Below are positions 21,781-26,678 of a stretch of 36,638 nt of DNA, piece by piece (positions within the stretch are counted from its first letter, which is position 1; each line of letters opens with the position of its first letter). The translations under genes were made by a program, and so were the position numbers. Source of the stretch: Thermoplasmata archaeon (GTDB taxonomy: Archaea > Thermoplasmatota > Thermoplasmata > Thermoplasmatales > Thermoplasmataceae); the NCBI GenBank assembly GCA_021822985.1, contig JAKAPZ010000009.1, positions 1-36,638 on the forward strand. The letters run 5' to 3'. The notes beneath the pieces are model-generated. The model saw only the letters and a list, made by a program, of their open reading frames with translations. It was not told the origin of the DNA and made no database searches.

Positions 21781-22920
21781 TCAGATCTGAAACGGTTCAG
21801 GAAAAGAAGTCACAGCATCCATAACTTCCTGGCGGATCAGCAACTGGTTTTCCATTGTTCCATTGAAGATCATCCTTCTCACCTCCGTTCCGCTGAATCC
21901 GATCTTGTGTCCAGGCTCATGCCCGCAACTGTCTGAAAATGAGAATGTTTCACATCTTCTGCAGTAACTTGCAGCATTGAATTTCATAAGTTCAATGCCA
22001 AGATCTGGAAACGCCTCACAGTTTTTCTGTGCATCAAATGCGCCATAGTAATTCCCGACACCTGCGTGATCCCTCCCTATGATGAAATGGGATGCTCCAA
22101 AATTTTTCCTCATTATGGCATGGAGAAGGGCCTCCCTCGGGCCCGCATACTGCATCTCATAATTCAGGGGGGCCACCAGCACCCTCTCTTTCGGGTAATG
22201 GGAATTCACCAGTGCATCATAGGATTTCACTATGACACCGTCATTGAAATCACCACTCTTCTTCTTTCCAATTACGGGGTTTATGAATAAACCATCCGTG
22301 GTATCGAGAGCCTTCATATGCATGAACTCGTGGCCCCTGTGCGGAACGTTTCTTGTCTGGAATGCCGTTACAGTTTTCCATCCTGCCTTTTTGAAACGTT
22401 CCCTTGTTTCGGCTGGGCTTAATGTTCTGTCCGAAAACGGCAGGTCATATGGAAAAACCTTAATGAATTCTCCTGAAAGATAAAGATTCCCACGGGAAAG
22501 GAACCTTGCAAAACCGGGATGTGAAGTATCCTCCGTCTGGAATATTCTCCTTCCGGCATATACCGGATCAATACTGAATCTTTCATCGATCTTAAGAATG
22601 GCTATGGGCCCTGAAACATCCCTGAGGACAATTTCATCTCCATCCTTCAGCGATCCGAAGTTTTCCTGCCCGATGGGAAGCATGATCGGAATGGGCCATA
22701 TGGTACCGTCAGGAAGCCTCTGCTCTTTCAGTATATTCTCAATCTCATGGCTGGAGTTGAACCCCTTCAGGGGACTGTAGACTCCGGTCGAAATGAGTCT
22801 TGCAGTTATCCTTGTCCCATAGGGGACATCCACATGCTGGGAATCTGAAAATTCAGAACAGATGGCCGGATTTGCTTCCGGTATTGAAATAAGGCGCTTT
22901 CCGTGAGGATCTGGAATCAT
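21781..22920 (-). CDS. sat: ATP sulfurylase (sulfate adenylyltransferase)
   Basis: Activates sulfate to adenosine 5'-phosphosulfate (APS). The 379-aa single-polypeptide type is identified by QTRNVPHRGHE (the HxGH nucleotide-binding motif), the later GRDHAGVGNYYG, and FSGTEVRRMI near the C-terminus. Two cysteine pairs in YCRRCETFSFSDSCGH could bind zinc, a feature of some bacterial and archaeal ATP sulfurylases. The start overlaps the cysH stop by 4 nt (ATGA), so cysH-sat is one transcript. Together they reduce sulfate to sulfite without APS kinase, which is not seen here. Confidence 0.95.
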   Translation of the reverse strand: MIPDPHGKRLISIPEANPAICSEFSDSQHVDVPYGTRITARLISTGVYSPLKGFNSSHEIENILKEQRLPDGTIWPIPIMLPIGQENFGSLKDGDEIVLRDVSGPIAILKIDERFSIDPVYAGRRIFQTEDTSHPGFARFLSRGNLYLSGEFIKVFPYDLPFSDRTLSPAETRERFKKAGWKTVTAFQTRNVPHRGHEFMHMKALDTTDGLFINPVIGKKKSGDFNDGVIVKSYDALVNSHYPKERVLVAPLNYEMQYAGPREALLHAIMRKNFGASHFIIGRDHAGVGNYYGAFDAQKNCEAFPDLGIELMKFNAASYCRRCETFSFSDSCGHEPGHKIGFSGTEVRRMIFNGTMENQLLIRQEVMDAVTSFPEPFQI

Positions 22921-23672
22921 AAATTTTTCACATCCTGCTCATTACTGGAATTGATTTCAGCACTCATTCTGTGAATTCCGCACTCTTTTTTTCCGGTTTC
23001 CCACCACCACCTTCCTGCCCTCGAATCCTCCCCTTGCAATATTGCCCTTGTGCAGGGAGCACATCCAATGCTCGGGAAACCCCTGTCATGCAGGGAATTG
23101 TATGGTATTTCGTTCTGTCTTATGTAATTCCAGACCTGTTCTTCAGTCCAGTCAGCAAGGGGATTGATCTTGAAAAGCCCATCTCTGTCGGGGTCTTCCA
23201 TGATCTTCTGAACGGTGGATCTATCCACTGACTGTTCCCTTCTAAGGCCCGTGATCCATGCCTTTCTCGTGCTCAACTCAGTGTTCAGGGGTACGATTTT
23301 TCTTGCTTCGCAGCATTTTTTCCTCAGTTCCACAGATCTGTAGAAAAGGTTTGGCCCATAGTCCTTCATCATTCCACTCAAACGATCTGCATCTGGGTGC
23401 AGGAATTTAATGCTGAATCCATATTTCTGAATAGCCAGATCAATCAATGCATAGGTTTCCTCATTAAGCCTTCCGGTGTCAAGTGTGATGATATCGGGAA
23501 TGATGGAATTCTTCTCCCTGAAACTGTAAAGCATGTGAAGTATGATCATATCTTCAGCTCCAAAACTGCATGAAAATACGGCATCCTTCCCGAACCTTTC
23601 CATGGCCTGGAGAAGAGTCTCCATGGCTGAAACTTCTTCGCTTCTGGCTGTAGAAATATTGTTGTTTAGCAC
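22917..23672 (-). CDS. cysH: Adenylyl-sulfate (APS) reductase, assimilatory, Fe-S type
   Basis: Reduces APS to sulfite and AMP using thioredoxin or a similar donor. The PP-loop fold has the SCSFGAEDMI phosphate loop. The cysteine set Cys120-Cys121 (KKCCEARK) and Cys204/Cys207 (GCAPCTR) binds the [4Fe-4S] cluster that marks APS-specific enzymes, and ECGIH (Cys231) is the catalytic C-terminal Cys. The start is GTG at 23672, with AAATATTTAA-type TATA centred 24 nt upstream (leaderless); no ATG gives the full fold. It is the first gene of cysH-sat and is divergent, by 130 nt, from the ComA-like gene, whose family consumes sulfite. Confidence 0.94.
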   Translation of the reverse strand: MLNNNISTARSEEVSAMETLLQAMERFGKDAVFSCSFGAEDMIILHMLYSFREKNSIIPDIITLDTGRLNEETYALIDLAIQKYGFSIKFLHPDADRLSGMMKDYGPNLFYRSVELRKKCCEARKIVPLNTELSTRKAWITGLRREQSVDRSTVQKIMEDPDRDGLFKINPLADWTEEQVWNYIRQNEIPYNSLHDRGFPSIGCAPCTRAILQGEDSRAGRWWWETGKKECGIHRMSAEINSSNEQDVKNL

Positions 23673-23690
23673 ATATCCAAATTCCCTGTA

Positions 23691-23700
23691 AATATTTAAC
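23691..23700 (-). promoter_or_regulatory. TATA-like box for cysH-sat
   Basis: GTTAAATATT (minus strand) is centred about 24 nt before the GTG start of cysH. Confidence 0.45.
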
Positions 23701-23774
23701 GCAATTCATATACTTAAATTATGATAGAAATATGAAACAGTTGCATATTGTTTGAAATTTTATATTGATAAAAA

Positions 23775-23783
23775 TTCATATAG
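23775..23783 (+). promoter_or_regulatory. TATA-like box for the ComA-like gene
   Basis: TTCATATAG is centred about 25 nt before the ATG at 23803. It faces away from the cysH promoter in a 130-nt AT-rich gap, where one regulator could control both. Confidence 0.45.
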
Positions 23784-23802
23784 AGATTAAACATGTATCA
23801 TC

Positions 23803-24780
23803 ATGGGTCTTTTCCTGAGCGATATCATCGATGCTTCAAGGACAAAGCCGCATAAAGACGGCCAGACAATGGTACTGGACAGGATATCGGGCAATCCCTC
23901 CACATTTGCGCAATCCATTTCCCAGTATATAGATGTTGCAAAGATAGGATGGGGGATACCATTCCTTCTGGACACGGAATTTCTTGACAGGTGGGTCAGT
24001 GCATGGAATGATCTGGGAGTGAGTGTTTCCAACGGCGGGACACTTCTGGAATATTGTGTGACAAAGCAGAAACAGGAAAAGTGTCTGCGTGCACTTCACA
24101 TGCATGGATTCCGCACATTTGAGATCAGTGAAGGGATCATCGAAATACCAAATAACGAGAAGAAGGCAATGGCAGAACTGGCAAGATCTCTGGAAATGAG
24201 GCTGCACATAGAAGTTGGAAAAAAAGATCTGAGGAATCAGCTTTCGCTGAGCACCACGCTGGAGAAAATAGGAGCGGCAATGGATCTTGATCCTGATATT
24301 GTTATAGTGGAGGGAAGGGAATCAGGCAAGGGTGTGGCCATATATGATGAATCAGGGAAAATAAAGTGGGACTGGGTGGATGCCATCATTTCCGAATTTG
24401 GAATGAAGAAGATAATGTTTGAGGCACCGCAGGAAGTGCAGCAGACAGAACTCATAATAAGGCTGGGAAAGGAAGTGAATCTTGGGAATGTGGCCCTGGG
24501 AAGCGTTGCTGCCCTGGAATCCCAAAGGCAAAGTATCAGGGGAGACACCTTCGGGGCACATCCAAGGCAACCGGACATCAATGGAGGCCCATCTCCCAGA
24601 TTTGTATTTTTCATAATAAGCACACATGGTGCAATAGATCAGGAGAAAATAATGAATCTGACAGGGCTCAACAGAAGGACTACCCAGAATTCACTTTCAT
24701 CCCTCATCAGGCAGGGCCTCATAAGGGAAACCAGGGATATGACAGATCTGAGAAAGAAGCTATATTCTTTGAACTCATAA
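23803..24780 (+). CDS. Phosphosulfolactate-synthase-like (ComA) domain fused to a C-terminal winged helix
   Basis: Residues 1 to about 260 follow the ComA family: TKPHKDGQTMVLDR, the DVAKIGWGIPFLL strand, SNGGTLLEYC, FEISEGIIEIP, LHIEVGKKD, IVEGRESGKGVAIYD, KIMFEAPQEVQQ and EVNLGNVALGSVAALESQR...GDTF. ComA adds sulfite to phosphoenolpyruvate, giving phosphosulfolactate, the first step to coenzyme M; plant HSA32 is a related non-enzymatic member. Residues about 265-325 form a MarR-like winged helix (IDQEKIMNLTGLNRRTTQNS, SSLIRQGLIRET). The fusion, and the position back-to-back with the sulfite-making cysH-sat, suggest either a sulfite-consuming enzyme that regulates itself or a sensor for sulfite or PEP. 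No other coenzyme M gene is nearby. Leaderless ATG start. Confidence 0.8.
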   Translation: MGLFLSDIIDASRTKPHKDGQTMVLDRISGNPSTFAQSISQYIDVAKIGWGIPFLLDTEFLDRWVSAWNDLGVSVSNGGTLLEYCVTKQKQEKCLRALHMHGFRTFEISEGIIEIPNNEKKAMAELARSLEMRLHIEVGKKDLRNQLSLSTTLEKIGAAMDLDPDIVIVEGRESGKGVAIYDESGKIKWDWVDAIISEFGMKKIMFEAPQEVQQTELIIRLGKEVNLGNVALGSVAALESQRQSIRGDTFGAHPRQPDINGGPSPRFVFFIISTHGAIDQEKIMNLTGLNRRTTQNSLSSLIRQGLIRETRDMTDLRKKLYSLNS

Positions 24781-24933: not shown

Positions 24934-25713
24934 ATGGATAATTCTACCAATTCGAAGAGATACTGCCACAAATGTGGAAACGAAGTTACGGAGGGAGATG
25001 TCTGCCAGAGTTGCGGTGCAAAACAAATGTCCTTAACAAAAGGTTCTTCTTGGGGTGAAGTGGATCATAATGCTTTGAATTACTTCAGAATGGCTTCGCT
25101 AATACAGATTTTTGGTTCGATTGGGCCACTTCTTTTGACAGTATCCAGTTCATCTTTTCTGTATCTCTCTTTCAGTACGAGTTCTGGAGGTATACCACAA
25201 ACTCTATTATTCATGCTCATCCTCGTGGTCATAGCCATCCTTATCTTCTCTGCAAGCATGTACTTATACAGCAAATCTTTTAAGGAATTGATGGAAAAAG
25301 ACAAATTCAAGTTCTCATTCCCTCACACAGGAGCCTTGATCCTGACTTTCATCGTCATATTCATTGCCCTTGGGTTGCTCTATATTGTCTCGTTATTAGC
25401 AAGCTTAACAACAGTAACCGCCACCTCGACATCATACAATGGATCATCGGTTTCTCCGGTTTTTGCAAGCATGATTGCTGTTTTTGGATTGCTCGGGCTT
25501 CTTGGCATAATATCATTTGTAGGTTATATAGGGCTCTTAATGGGACAGTGGAGAGTGGGAACAGAATACAACTCAGATTTGATACATATTGGAACAATCC
25601 TGAGTCTTATCCCAGTTATATCGATATTGGGGCCCATACTTTTCTTCATATCTTCAACCAAGATTTTGGGAAGCATGAAAACAACACAGGAAGGCCCCCT
25701 TTCGGCCCCATAA
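24934..25713 (+). CDS. Zinc-ribbon multi-span membrane protein (DUF973-like), copy 1
   Basis: A 259-aa protein that begins with a Cys4 zinc ribbon (YCHKCGNEV...DVCQSCGA, residues about 11-29). A membrane part of about five hydrophobic spans follows, with the motifs NYFRMASLIQIFGSIGPLL, YLYSKSFKEL, PHTGALIL and LGPILFFISSTKI. The layout resembles archaeal DUF973 proteins with a zinc-ribbon head; function unknown. A TATATATA box centred 23 nt before the ATG makes it a separate leaderless transcript. A hairpin terminator follows. The next gene is a diverged paralogue with the same motifs. The region is more AT-rich than its metabolic neighbours. Confidence 0.68.
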   Translation: MDNSTNSKRYCHKCGNEVTEGDVCQSCGAKQMSLTKGSSWGEVDHNALNYFRMASLIQIFGSIGPLLLTVSSSSFLYLSFSTSSGGIPQTLLFMLILVVIAILIFSASMYLYSKSFKELMEKDKFKFSFPHTGALILTFIVIFIALGLLYIVSLLASLTTVTATSTSYNGSSVSPVFASMIAVFGLLGLLGIISFVGYIGLLMGQWRVGTEYNSDLIHIGTILSLIPVISILGPILFFISSTKILGSMKTTQEGPLSAP

Positions 25714-25901: not shown

Positions 25902-26678
25902 GTGTCATTTCTAGGGCGAAAGCATTTAATTTGCGCAAAGTGTGAAAATATAATTCCTGCTATGCTAAATTGCCCACTTTGTGGAGCGAGGCAGAGAACA
26001 GTAGGATCGTCAGAAAAGAAGATAAAAGTTCAGGAGAAAGATTTTCAAACTGCAAGAATGCACTACGTTTCCATGATCCATTTCAGAACCGGCTCAATTT
26101 TAAGTGTCGCCGGCTATGCAATATCATTGCTGCTTCTGATTCTGTTGATTTATATTGATGGATTTATGCAGACAGGAAGTTTTCCCGTACAAATGTGGAT
26201 ATTTTTTCTCATTTTGTTAATAGTAGTGATCATAATGACAATCAATATAATTGAAATGTATTTCTACGCAAAATCTTTCCGGATAATGAATAATATAGGA
26301 TATACGAATTTCTCCCTTCCTTACACTGGAACAATCATACTGATTTTTACGGAAATTTTATCTATTTTTGGTGTTCTATATTATATCAATCTGATAGGAA
26401 CAATAACTACCCAAATCCAGCAATCATTTCTCTTTCTAGCTGTTTTTGTTTTGGTCATCTTATTCCTGTGGTTCATAGGGCAAGTTTGCCTTTTGACAGG
26501 AATGTGGAGAATGTGTTTAGTGTATGATTCCACATTAATGCGATCAGGAGTATGGGCCACCGTATTGTTTTCAATAATATTTCCTGTATTGCCATTTCTT
26601 GGCCCCATACTATTGTCCATTTCTTCAAACGATATTGTACAGGGCATGGAGTATGAATTGGAAAAAATGGTTGTATAG
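25902..26678 (+). CDS. Zinc-ribbon multi-span membrane protein (DUF973-like), copy 2
   Basis: Paralogue of the preceding gene: a Cys4 ribbon (CAKCENIIPAMLNCPLCGA, residues about 11-29) and then about five spans with the matching motifs MYFYAKSFRIM, LPYTGTIIL, CLLTGMWRMC and LGPILLSISSNDI. The sequence identity looks low, so the duplication is old. The start is GTG at 25902, and TTAATATA centred 24 nt upstream supports a leaderless message. It converges on the 8-oxoguanine glycosylase gene with only 2 nt between stops. Role unknown; the ribbon and membrane part suggest a membrane-tethered regulator or assembly factor, but nothing in the sequence proves this. Confidence 0.66.
   Translation: MSFLGRKHLICAKCENIIPAMLNCPLCGARQRTVGSSEKKIKVQEKDFQTARMHYVSMIHFRTGSILSVAGYAISLLLLILLIYIDGFMQTGSFPVQMWIFFLILLIVVIIMTINIIEMYFYAKSFRIMNNIGYTNFSLPYTGTIILIFTEILSIFGVLYYINLIGTITTQIQQSFLFLAVFVLVILFLWFIGQVCLLTGMWRMCLVYDSTLMRSGVWATVLFSIIFPVLPFLGPILLSISSNDIVQGMEYELEKMVV

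Follow-up and report, generated by a model that had tools for sequence, protein, structure and literature searches.

A ComA-winged helix fusion divergent from cysH-sat in Thermoplasmata is a candidate enzyme-regulator of sulfite homeostasis

The window analyzed here is a stretch of 36,638 nt from a Thermoplasmata archaeon (contig JAKAPZ010000009.1 of assembly GCA_021822985.1). It carries a plus-strand gene with an ATG start (23803..24780) for a 325-residue protein in which a ComA barrel (residues ~13 to 250) is followed by a predicted winged helix (residues ~263 to 323). We designated this gene comA-wHTH. The initial annotation had assigned it positions 23672-24780; the end is correct, but the start had taken in the intergenic gap, and the gene begins at 23803. 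Divergent from comA-wHTH on the minus strand are cysH (22917..23672) and sat (21781..22920), which overlap by 4 nt. The cysH product is of the APS-reductase type (TIGR02055, over the cut-off) and has the Fe-S cysteine pattern C120-C121 ... C204-x-x-C207, and the sat product scored above the curated cut-off for sulfate adenylyltransferase. The intergenic region common to cysH-sat and comA-wHTH (23673..23802) is exactly 130 nt, as the initial annotation had stated when it proposed a divergent promoter there. Downstream of the fusion are two tandem genes for zinc-ribbon-headed membrane proteins (24934-25713 and 25902-26678), the first product belonging to DUF973 and the second having no Pfam match.

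Residues 13 to 248 (23839..24546, plus strand) matched the Pfam ComA domain PF02679 with E=8.1e-64 and a score of 215.8 bits (cut-off, 25.2). An AlphaFold2 model of the full chain, computed from a 44-sequence alignment, had a pLDDT of 91 and consisted of a TIM barrel and then a winged helix. The best solved relatives are Methanocaldococcus jannaschii ComA (1QWG), which was the top Foldseek match of the modeled barrel (E 4.7e-24, TMt 0.89), and Bacillus subtilis YitD (1U83). These two references have 99 identical columns, and the window protein is identical at 54 of the 99, keeping K47, G49, W50, G79-T80, E83, E107, S109, K141, E170, R172, E173, G175, E207, P209, Q214, and N229. The window protein thus resembles ComA and YitD both in its TIM barrel and in having most of the residues conserved between them. 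In the 43 other fusions K47, E83, E107, K141, E170, R172, E173, E207, and N229 are 98 to 100% conserved, and the fusions have clade-specific motifs (such as KIGWG and IKWDWV) that are not in the reference ComA. Unlike ComA and YitD, the window protein adds a C-terminal winged helix, scores below the ComA equivalog TIGR03849 (212.6 bits versus a cut-off of 280), and is encoded in a genome in which comC was not found. Because the ComA residues are kept, the equivalog cut-off is not reached, and genes for coenzyme M synthesis are not evident, phosphosulfolactate (PSL) synthase activity, the condensation of PEP with sulfite, is plausible from the sequence and is treated only as that.

The Pfam MarR match of the C terminus (E=7e-4, 19.9 bits versus a cut-off of 24.6) and the NCBIfam MsvR match of the isolated domain (1.5e-6) were too weak to decide its identity, and structure prediction was therefore applied. 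The domain (24589..24771, plus strand) is predicted to have helices at residues 263-275, 280-287, and 291-303 and strands at 307-311 and 319-323. Modeled alone, it had a pLDDT of 92, and MarR-family winged helices topped its list of Foldseek matches in the PDB (best E 6e-5). Residues Q280, R291, T293, Q295, L301, D315, R317, and Y321 are invariant among the 44 relatives. As modeled, the C terminus is a MarR-like winged helix. Its core is like that of the MarR-family regulators 2NNN and PcaV (4G9Y), with a TM-score of ~0.8 for the 74-residue domain, but with only ~60 to 74 residues it does not have the MarR dimerization helices (TMt ~0.45). The ComA pattern and the terminal MarR-like winged helix read in the initial annotation were both borne out by these results.

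A PF02679 search of relatives found 28 places in 22 genomes, and every intact copy among the 28 was a full-length fusion; one copy that is ended by a contig edge (L054) and one that is split into frames (L049) are not intact. The fusion is divergent from cysH at 24 of the 28 places, mostly with sat behind cysH. The other four places, which are unlinked to cysH, hold second paralogs, each in a genome with a linked copy as well, and a cysH-divergent copy is present in all 22 fusion-bearing genomes of this first search. Within the family, sat was found in 22/22 genomes with comA versus 3/15 without it (Fisher p=2.5e-7, phylogeny ignored). Dozens of genomes have the same domain order and length and a divergent cysH, and therefore the locus is not a chance arrangement. 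The initial annotation had proposed looking for the same fusion and neighborhood in other Thermoplasmatales genomes; both recur, and the association with sat and cysH is strong.

Two further features were observed among the relatives. A deoxyhypusine synthase gene lies downstream of the fusion on the same strand at L043, L041, L042, L045, and L050, which is probably unrelated gene order. One ComA-wHTH copy has in-frame stops (G018:C1:88392-89081; L022, L049) and is beside split cysH and sat frames, with a sulfite-reductase match close by on the same contig. This module is possibly decaying as a whole, or the assembly may be poor.

A wider survey, in which the whole class was searched and GTDB genomes were scanned, added two sets of Thermoplasmata lineages, one (f14) in which the fusion is mostly divergent from cysH and one (f15) in which it mostly is not. 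The fusion was found in Ferroplasma acidarmanus Fer1 (L166), Cuniculiplasma, "Ca. Sysuiplasma," and many Thermoplasmata metagenome-assembled genomes (MAGs), as well as in Nitrososphaerales/Thaumarchaeota MAGs; few of the fusion-bearing genomes are named, and most are MAGs. The main f15 clade, which is large (for example, L180, L182, and L187), has the fusion without cysH close by, and the recurring neighbors that were checked had no clear sulfur theme. ORF calling in f15 is unreliable because of high GC. At L187 and L194, sat is just upstream of the fusion on the same strand.

Outside Thermoplasmatales, other genes with a connection to sulfite or sulfonates are next to the fusion in Nitrososphaerales MAGs. 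A gene for UDP-sulfoquinovose synthase, which condenses UDP-glucose with sulfite, as in the sulfite-consuming Agl3 (PMC4388408), adjoins the fusion at L148, L151, and L169. At L151 a YeiH-family gene (PF03601) is divergent from the fusion; YeiH is the key sulfite resistance factor of Salmonella, and its divergently encoded regulator responds to sulfite (PMC12880088). Genes for SsuA-family (SsuABC-type sulfonate) transporters are divergent from the fusion at L170, L173, and L214. The UDP-sulfoquinovose synthase at L148 (7525-9810, 761 aa) is split by a LAGLIDADG segment (residues ~391-450), which is probably an intein.

It could be argued that cysH and comA-wHTH are adjacent only because their order was inherited, with no functional link between them, and that the winged helix has some other regulatory target or none. 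The main f15 clade, without cysH, would fit this explanation, as would the few label changes in the tree, 7 for cysH linkage. However, from genus to genus the outer flanking genes differ on both sides, but the cysH/comA pair is retained, indicating that the pair itself is the conserved unit. The co-occurrence with sat and the linkage of the fusion to three other types of sulfite or sulfonate genes also argue against mere inheritance of gene order, which we consider highly improbable. In the tree, which was made with a quick method and has moderate support, the copies linked to UDP-sulfoquinovose synthase nest among the cysH-linked copies.

The region between cysH and comA-wHTH contains a 19-bp palindrome (23730..23748), the putative operator ATATGAAACAGTTGCATAT, with the pattern ATATGNAANNNTTNCATAT. 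The sole exact match to ATATGNAANNNTTNCATAT in the window genome is the one in the shared gap, and two close relatives have one match each, in the same gap. Putative TATA-like elements were located by eye for both genes: for comA-wHTH, the transcript of which would be leaderless, TTCATATA (23775..23782, plus strand), ~25 nt ahead of the ATG, and for cysH, also as a leaderless transcript, TTAAATATTTAC (23688..23699, minus strand). The palindrome, also judged by eye, is ~40 nt upstream of each gene's putative TATA-like element. This position is compatible with activation or repression and does not settle which.

Comparison with control intergenic regions was confounded by GC (0.31 versus 0.41), and therefore a permuted-motif test on 33 dissimilar cysH-comA gaps from other lineages was relied on. 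In these distant gaps the operator pattern ranked 1 of 201, the other 200 being permuted palindromes. It had 1.10 fewer mismatches than in shuffles, whereas the permuted mean was 0.02 (SD 0.22), placing the operator pattern ~4.8 SD above that mean. Examples of gaps with the palindrome are those at L043, L047, L055, L131, L133, and L134. Several lineages, such as L033/L037, L034, L039, and L155, have a weak palindrome or none, and it was absent from the Nitrososphaerales loci and from the promoter of the second paralog described below. An operator common to all lineages was not found. A scan of the window genome that allowed up to 2 mismatches gave 45 forward sites versus 10 for the reversed control, but most of the 14 near matches inspected, of which five had 1 mismatch and nine had 2, were inside ORFs. 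A wider regulon in this genome is therefore unsupported, and the regulation looks local.

The window genome (G000) encodes a second ComA-wHTH (L053:6553-7545; G000:C11), unlinked to cysH. This paralog has lost the conserved R246 and D248 (GLAGE for GLRGD) and has kept the winged helix, and it is possibly a pure regulator. Its orthologue in the sister genomes L051 and L052 is transcribed divergently from a gene for a Ras/Roc-like GTPase, and a RadA-like and a GAPDH-like gene are close by. The window protein could also be purely a transcription regulator, with a noncatalytic ComA barrel that is only a sensor for sulfite, PEP, or another sulfonate. Such a function would be consistent with the state of the second paralog, with a score under the ComA equivalog cut-off, and with the conserved linkage and putative operator. 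However, the shared ComA residues, K141, R172, E173, and E207 among them, are essentially invariant in the fusions, beyond what a bare binding pocket would need, and a solely regulatory role is considered unlikely.

The genes for potential sulfite-consuming reactions suggest what the sulfite might be for. No sulfite reductase (NIR_SIR) match was found in the window genome or in nearly all of the comA-containing relatives tested. The UDP-sulfoquinovose synthase of the window genome scored 616 versus an equivalog cut-off of 575, and this enzyme is near universal in the family. Because UDP-sulfoquinovose synthase is encoded and sulfite reductase was not found, sulfite probably feeds sulfo-sugars. 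The N-glycans of Thermoplasma acidophilum are reported to contain 6-C-sulfofucose, the biosynthesis of which is unsolved (PMC12421959). UDP-sulfoquinovose synthase is also common in genomes without comA, and thus the fusion tracks endogenous sulfite production and not sugar synthesis itself.

There were 0 matches to comC (PF02615) in the window genome and 15 family neighbors; the window genome is 81% complete, so gene absences there are provisional. A ComB-like protein was found in the window genome and in nearly all tested family members, with or without comA, and the one in the window genome scored under every equivalog cut-off. With TIGR03849 not reached, comC not found, and ComB-like scores of this kind, membership in a coenzyme M pathway was dropped. 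The alternative raised in the initial annotation, an enzyme of a sulfolactate or coenzyme M-like pathway, was weakened by the comC result and by the independence of the ComB-like protein from comA.

The main role of the protein might nevertheless be biosynthesis or detoxification, as a PSL synthase, with the winged helix serving only self-regulation or oligomerization and cysH-sat simply supplying the substrate for a sulfolactate-type product. The kept ComA residues are consistent with such a role, as are the position of the fusion beside sulfite makers nearly always in the family, the widespread ComB-like protein, and the failure to find sulfite reductase in the window genome. The shortfall against TIGR03849, the lack of comC matches in the tested family members, and the equal presence of the ComB-like protein in genomes without comA point the other way. 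Furthermore, such a role would leave unexplained why the fusion is linked to genes for UDP-sulfoquinovose synthase, YeiH, and SsuABC and why the palindrome is enriched. We give this explanation a low probability.

The explanation that we prefer, with a probability of roughly 0.55, is that ComA-wHTH is a bifunctional enzyme-regulator of sulfite homeostasis; it probably acts as a sensor or scavenger of sulfite and turns the sulfite-making genes on or off. Sat and CysH would convert sulfate to sulfite, and UDP-sulfoquinovose synthase would most likely direct the sulfite into the sulfo-sugars of surface glycans. The ComA barrel would bind sulfite and PEP and would probably still condense the two to phosphosulfolactate. 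The ligand state of the barrel (sulfite, or PEP/phosphosulfolactate) would set the binding of the winged helix to the palindrome in the shared promoter, and this binding would tune cysH-sat and the fusion's own gene to the sulfite pool, with either sign of regulation. Occupation of a palindrome would call for two winged helices acting as a pair. The initial annotation had suggested a one-protein sulfite switch. The conserved fusion, its neighborhood, the other sulfite contexts, and the enriched palindrome strengthen that suggestion; that the ligand is sulfite, that the protein binds DNA, and that it is an active enzyme are what we infer.

A broader and more tentative proposal, one that we would not yet bet on, is that the fusions form an undescribed archaeal regulator family in which a catalytically competent PSL synthase acts as the sulfite sensor. 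Across Thermoplasmata and Thaumarchaeota, one protein would read sulfite together with PEP, trap the surplus as phosphosulfolactate, and set the expression of sat-cysH, UDP-sulfoquinovose synthase, YeiH, and the genes for sulfonate uptake. A search of open-licence papers for ComA with a helix-turn-helix (HTH) or in Thermoplasma returned nothing relevant. If the proposed function is correct, archaea would have a regulator based on an enzyme that fixes sulfite, and ComA would have a role outside coenzyme M synthesis. Such a function would also hint at the way in which acidophilic archaea with no detected sulfite reductase handle toxic sulfite destined for sulfo-sugar glycans.

The proposed arrangement has similarities to known systems. 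In the YeiE-YeiH system of Salmonella, a sulfite-linked regulator gene is also divergent from its target, with 120 bp between them (PMC12880088), and the YeiH-family gene at L151 is divergent from the fusion in the same manner. However, Salmonella YeiE belongs to the LysR-type regulators and has no enzyme barrel (PMC12880088). In the ComA-wHTH family, an enzyme and a DNA-binding-type domain are in one chain and are conserved as such, and by analogy the nearest known arrangement is RbkR, an archaeal riboflavin kinase and transcription regulator. In PMC8305020, the dual function of RbkR is described as experimentally shown (citing Rodionova 2017), and the protein is placed in Haloferax and Thermoplasma, whereas the M. 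jannaschii enzyme is described as having no HTH. On that account, RbkR of Thermoplasma and haloarchaea is like the fusion in joining an enzyme and an HTH in one chain, and the split is the same, M. jannaschii ComA having no winged helix just as the M. jannaschii kinase has no HTH. As RbkR is described there, the two differ in enzyme, fold, and pathway, and the HTH is N terminal in RbkR but C terminal in the fusion.
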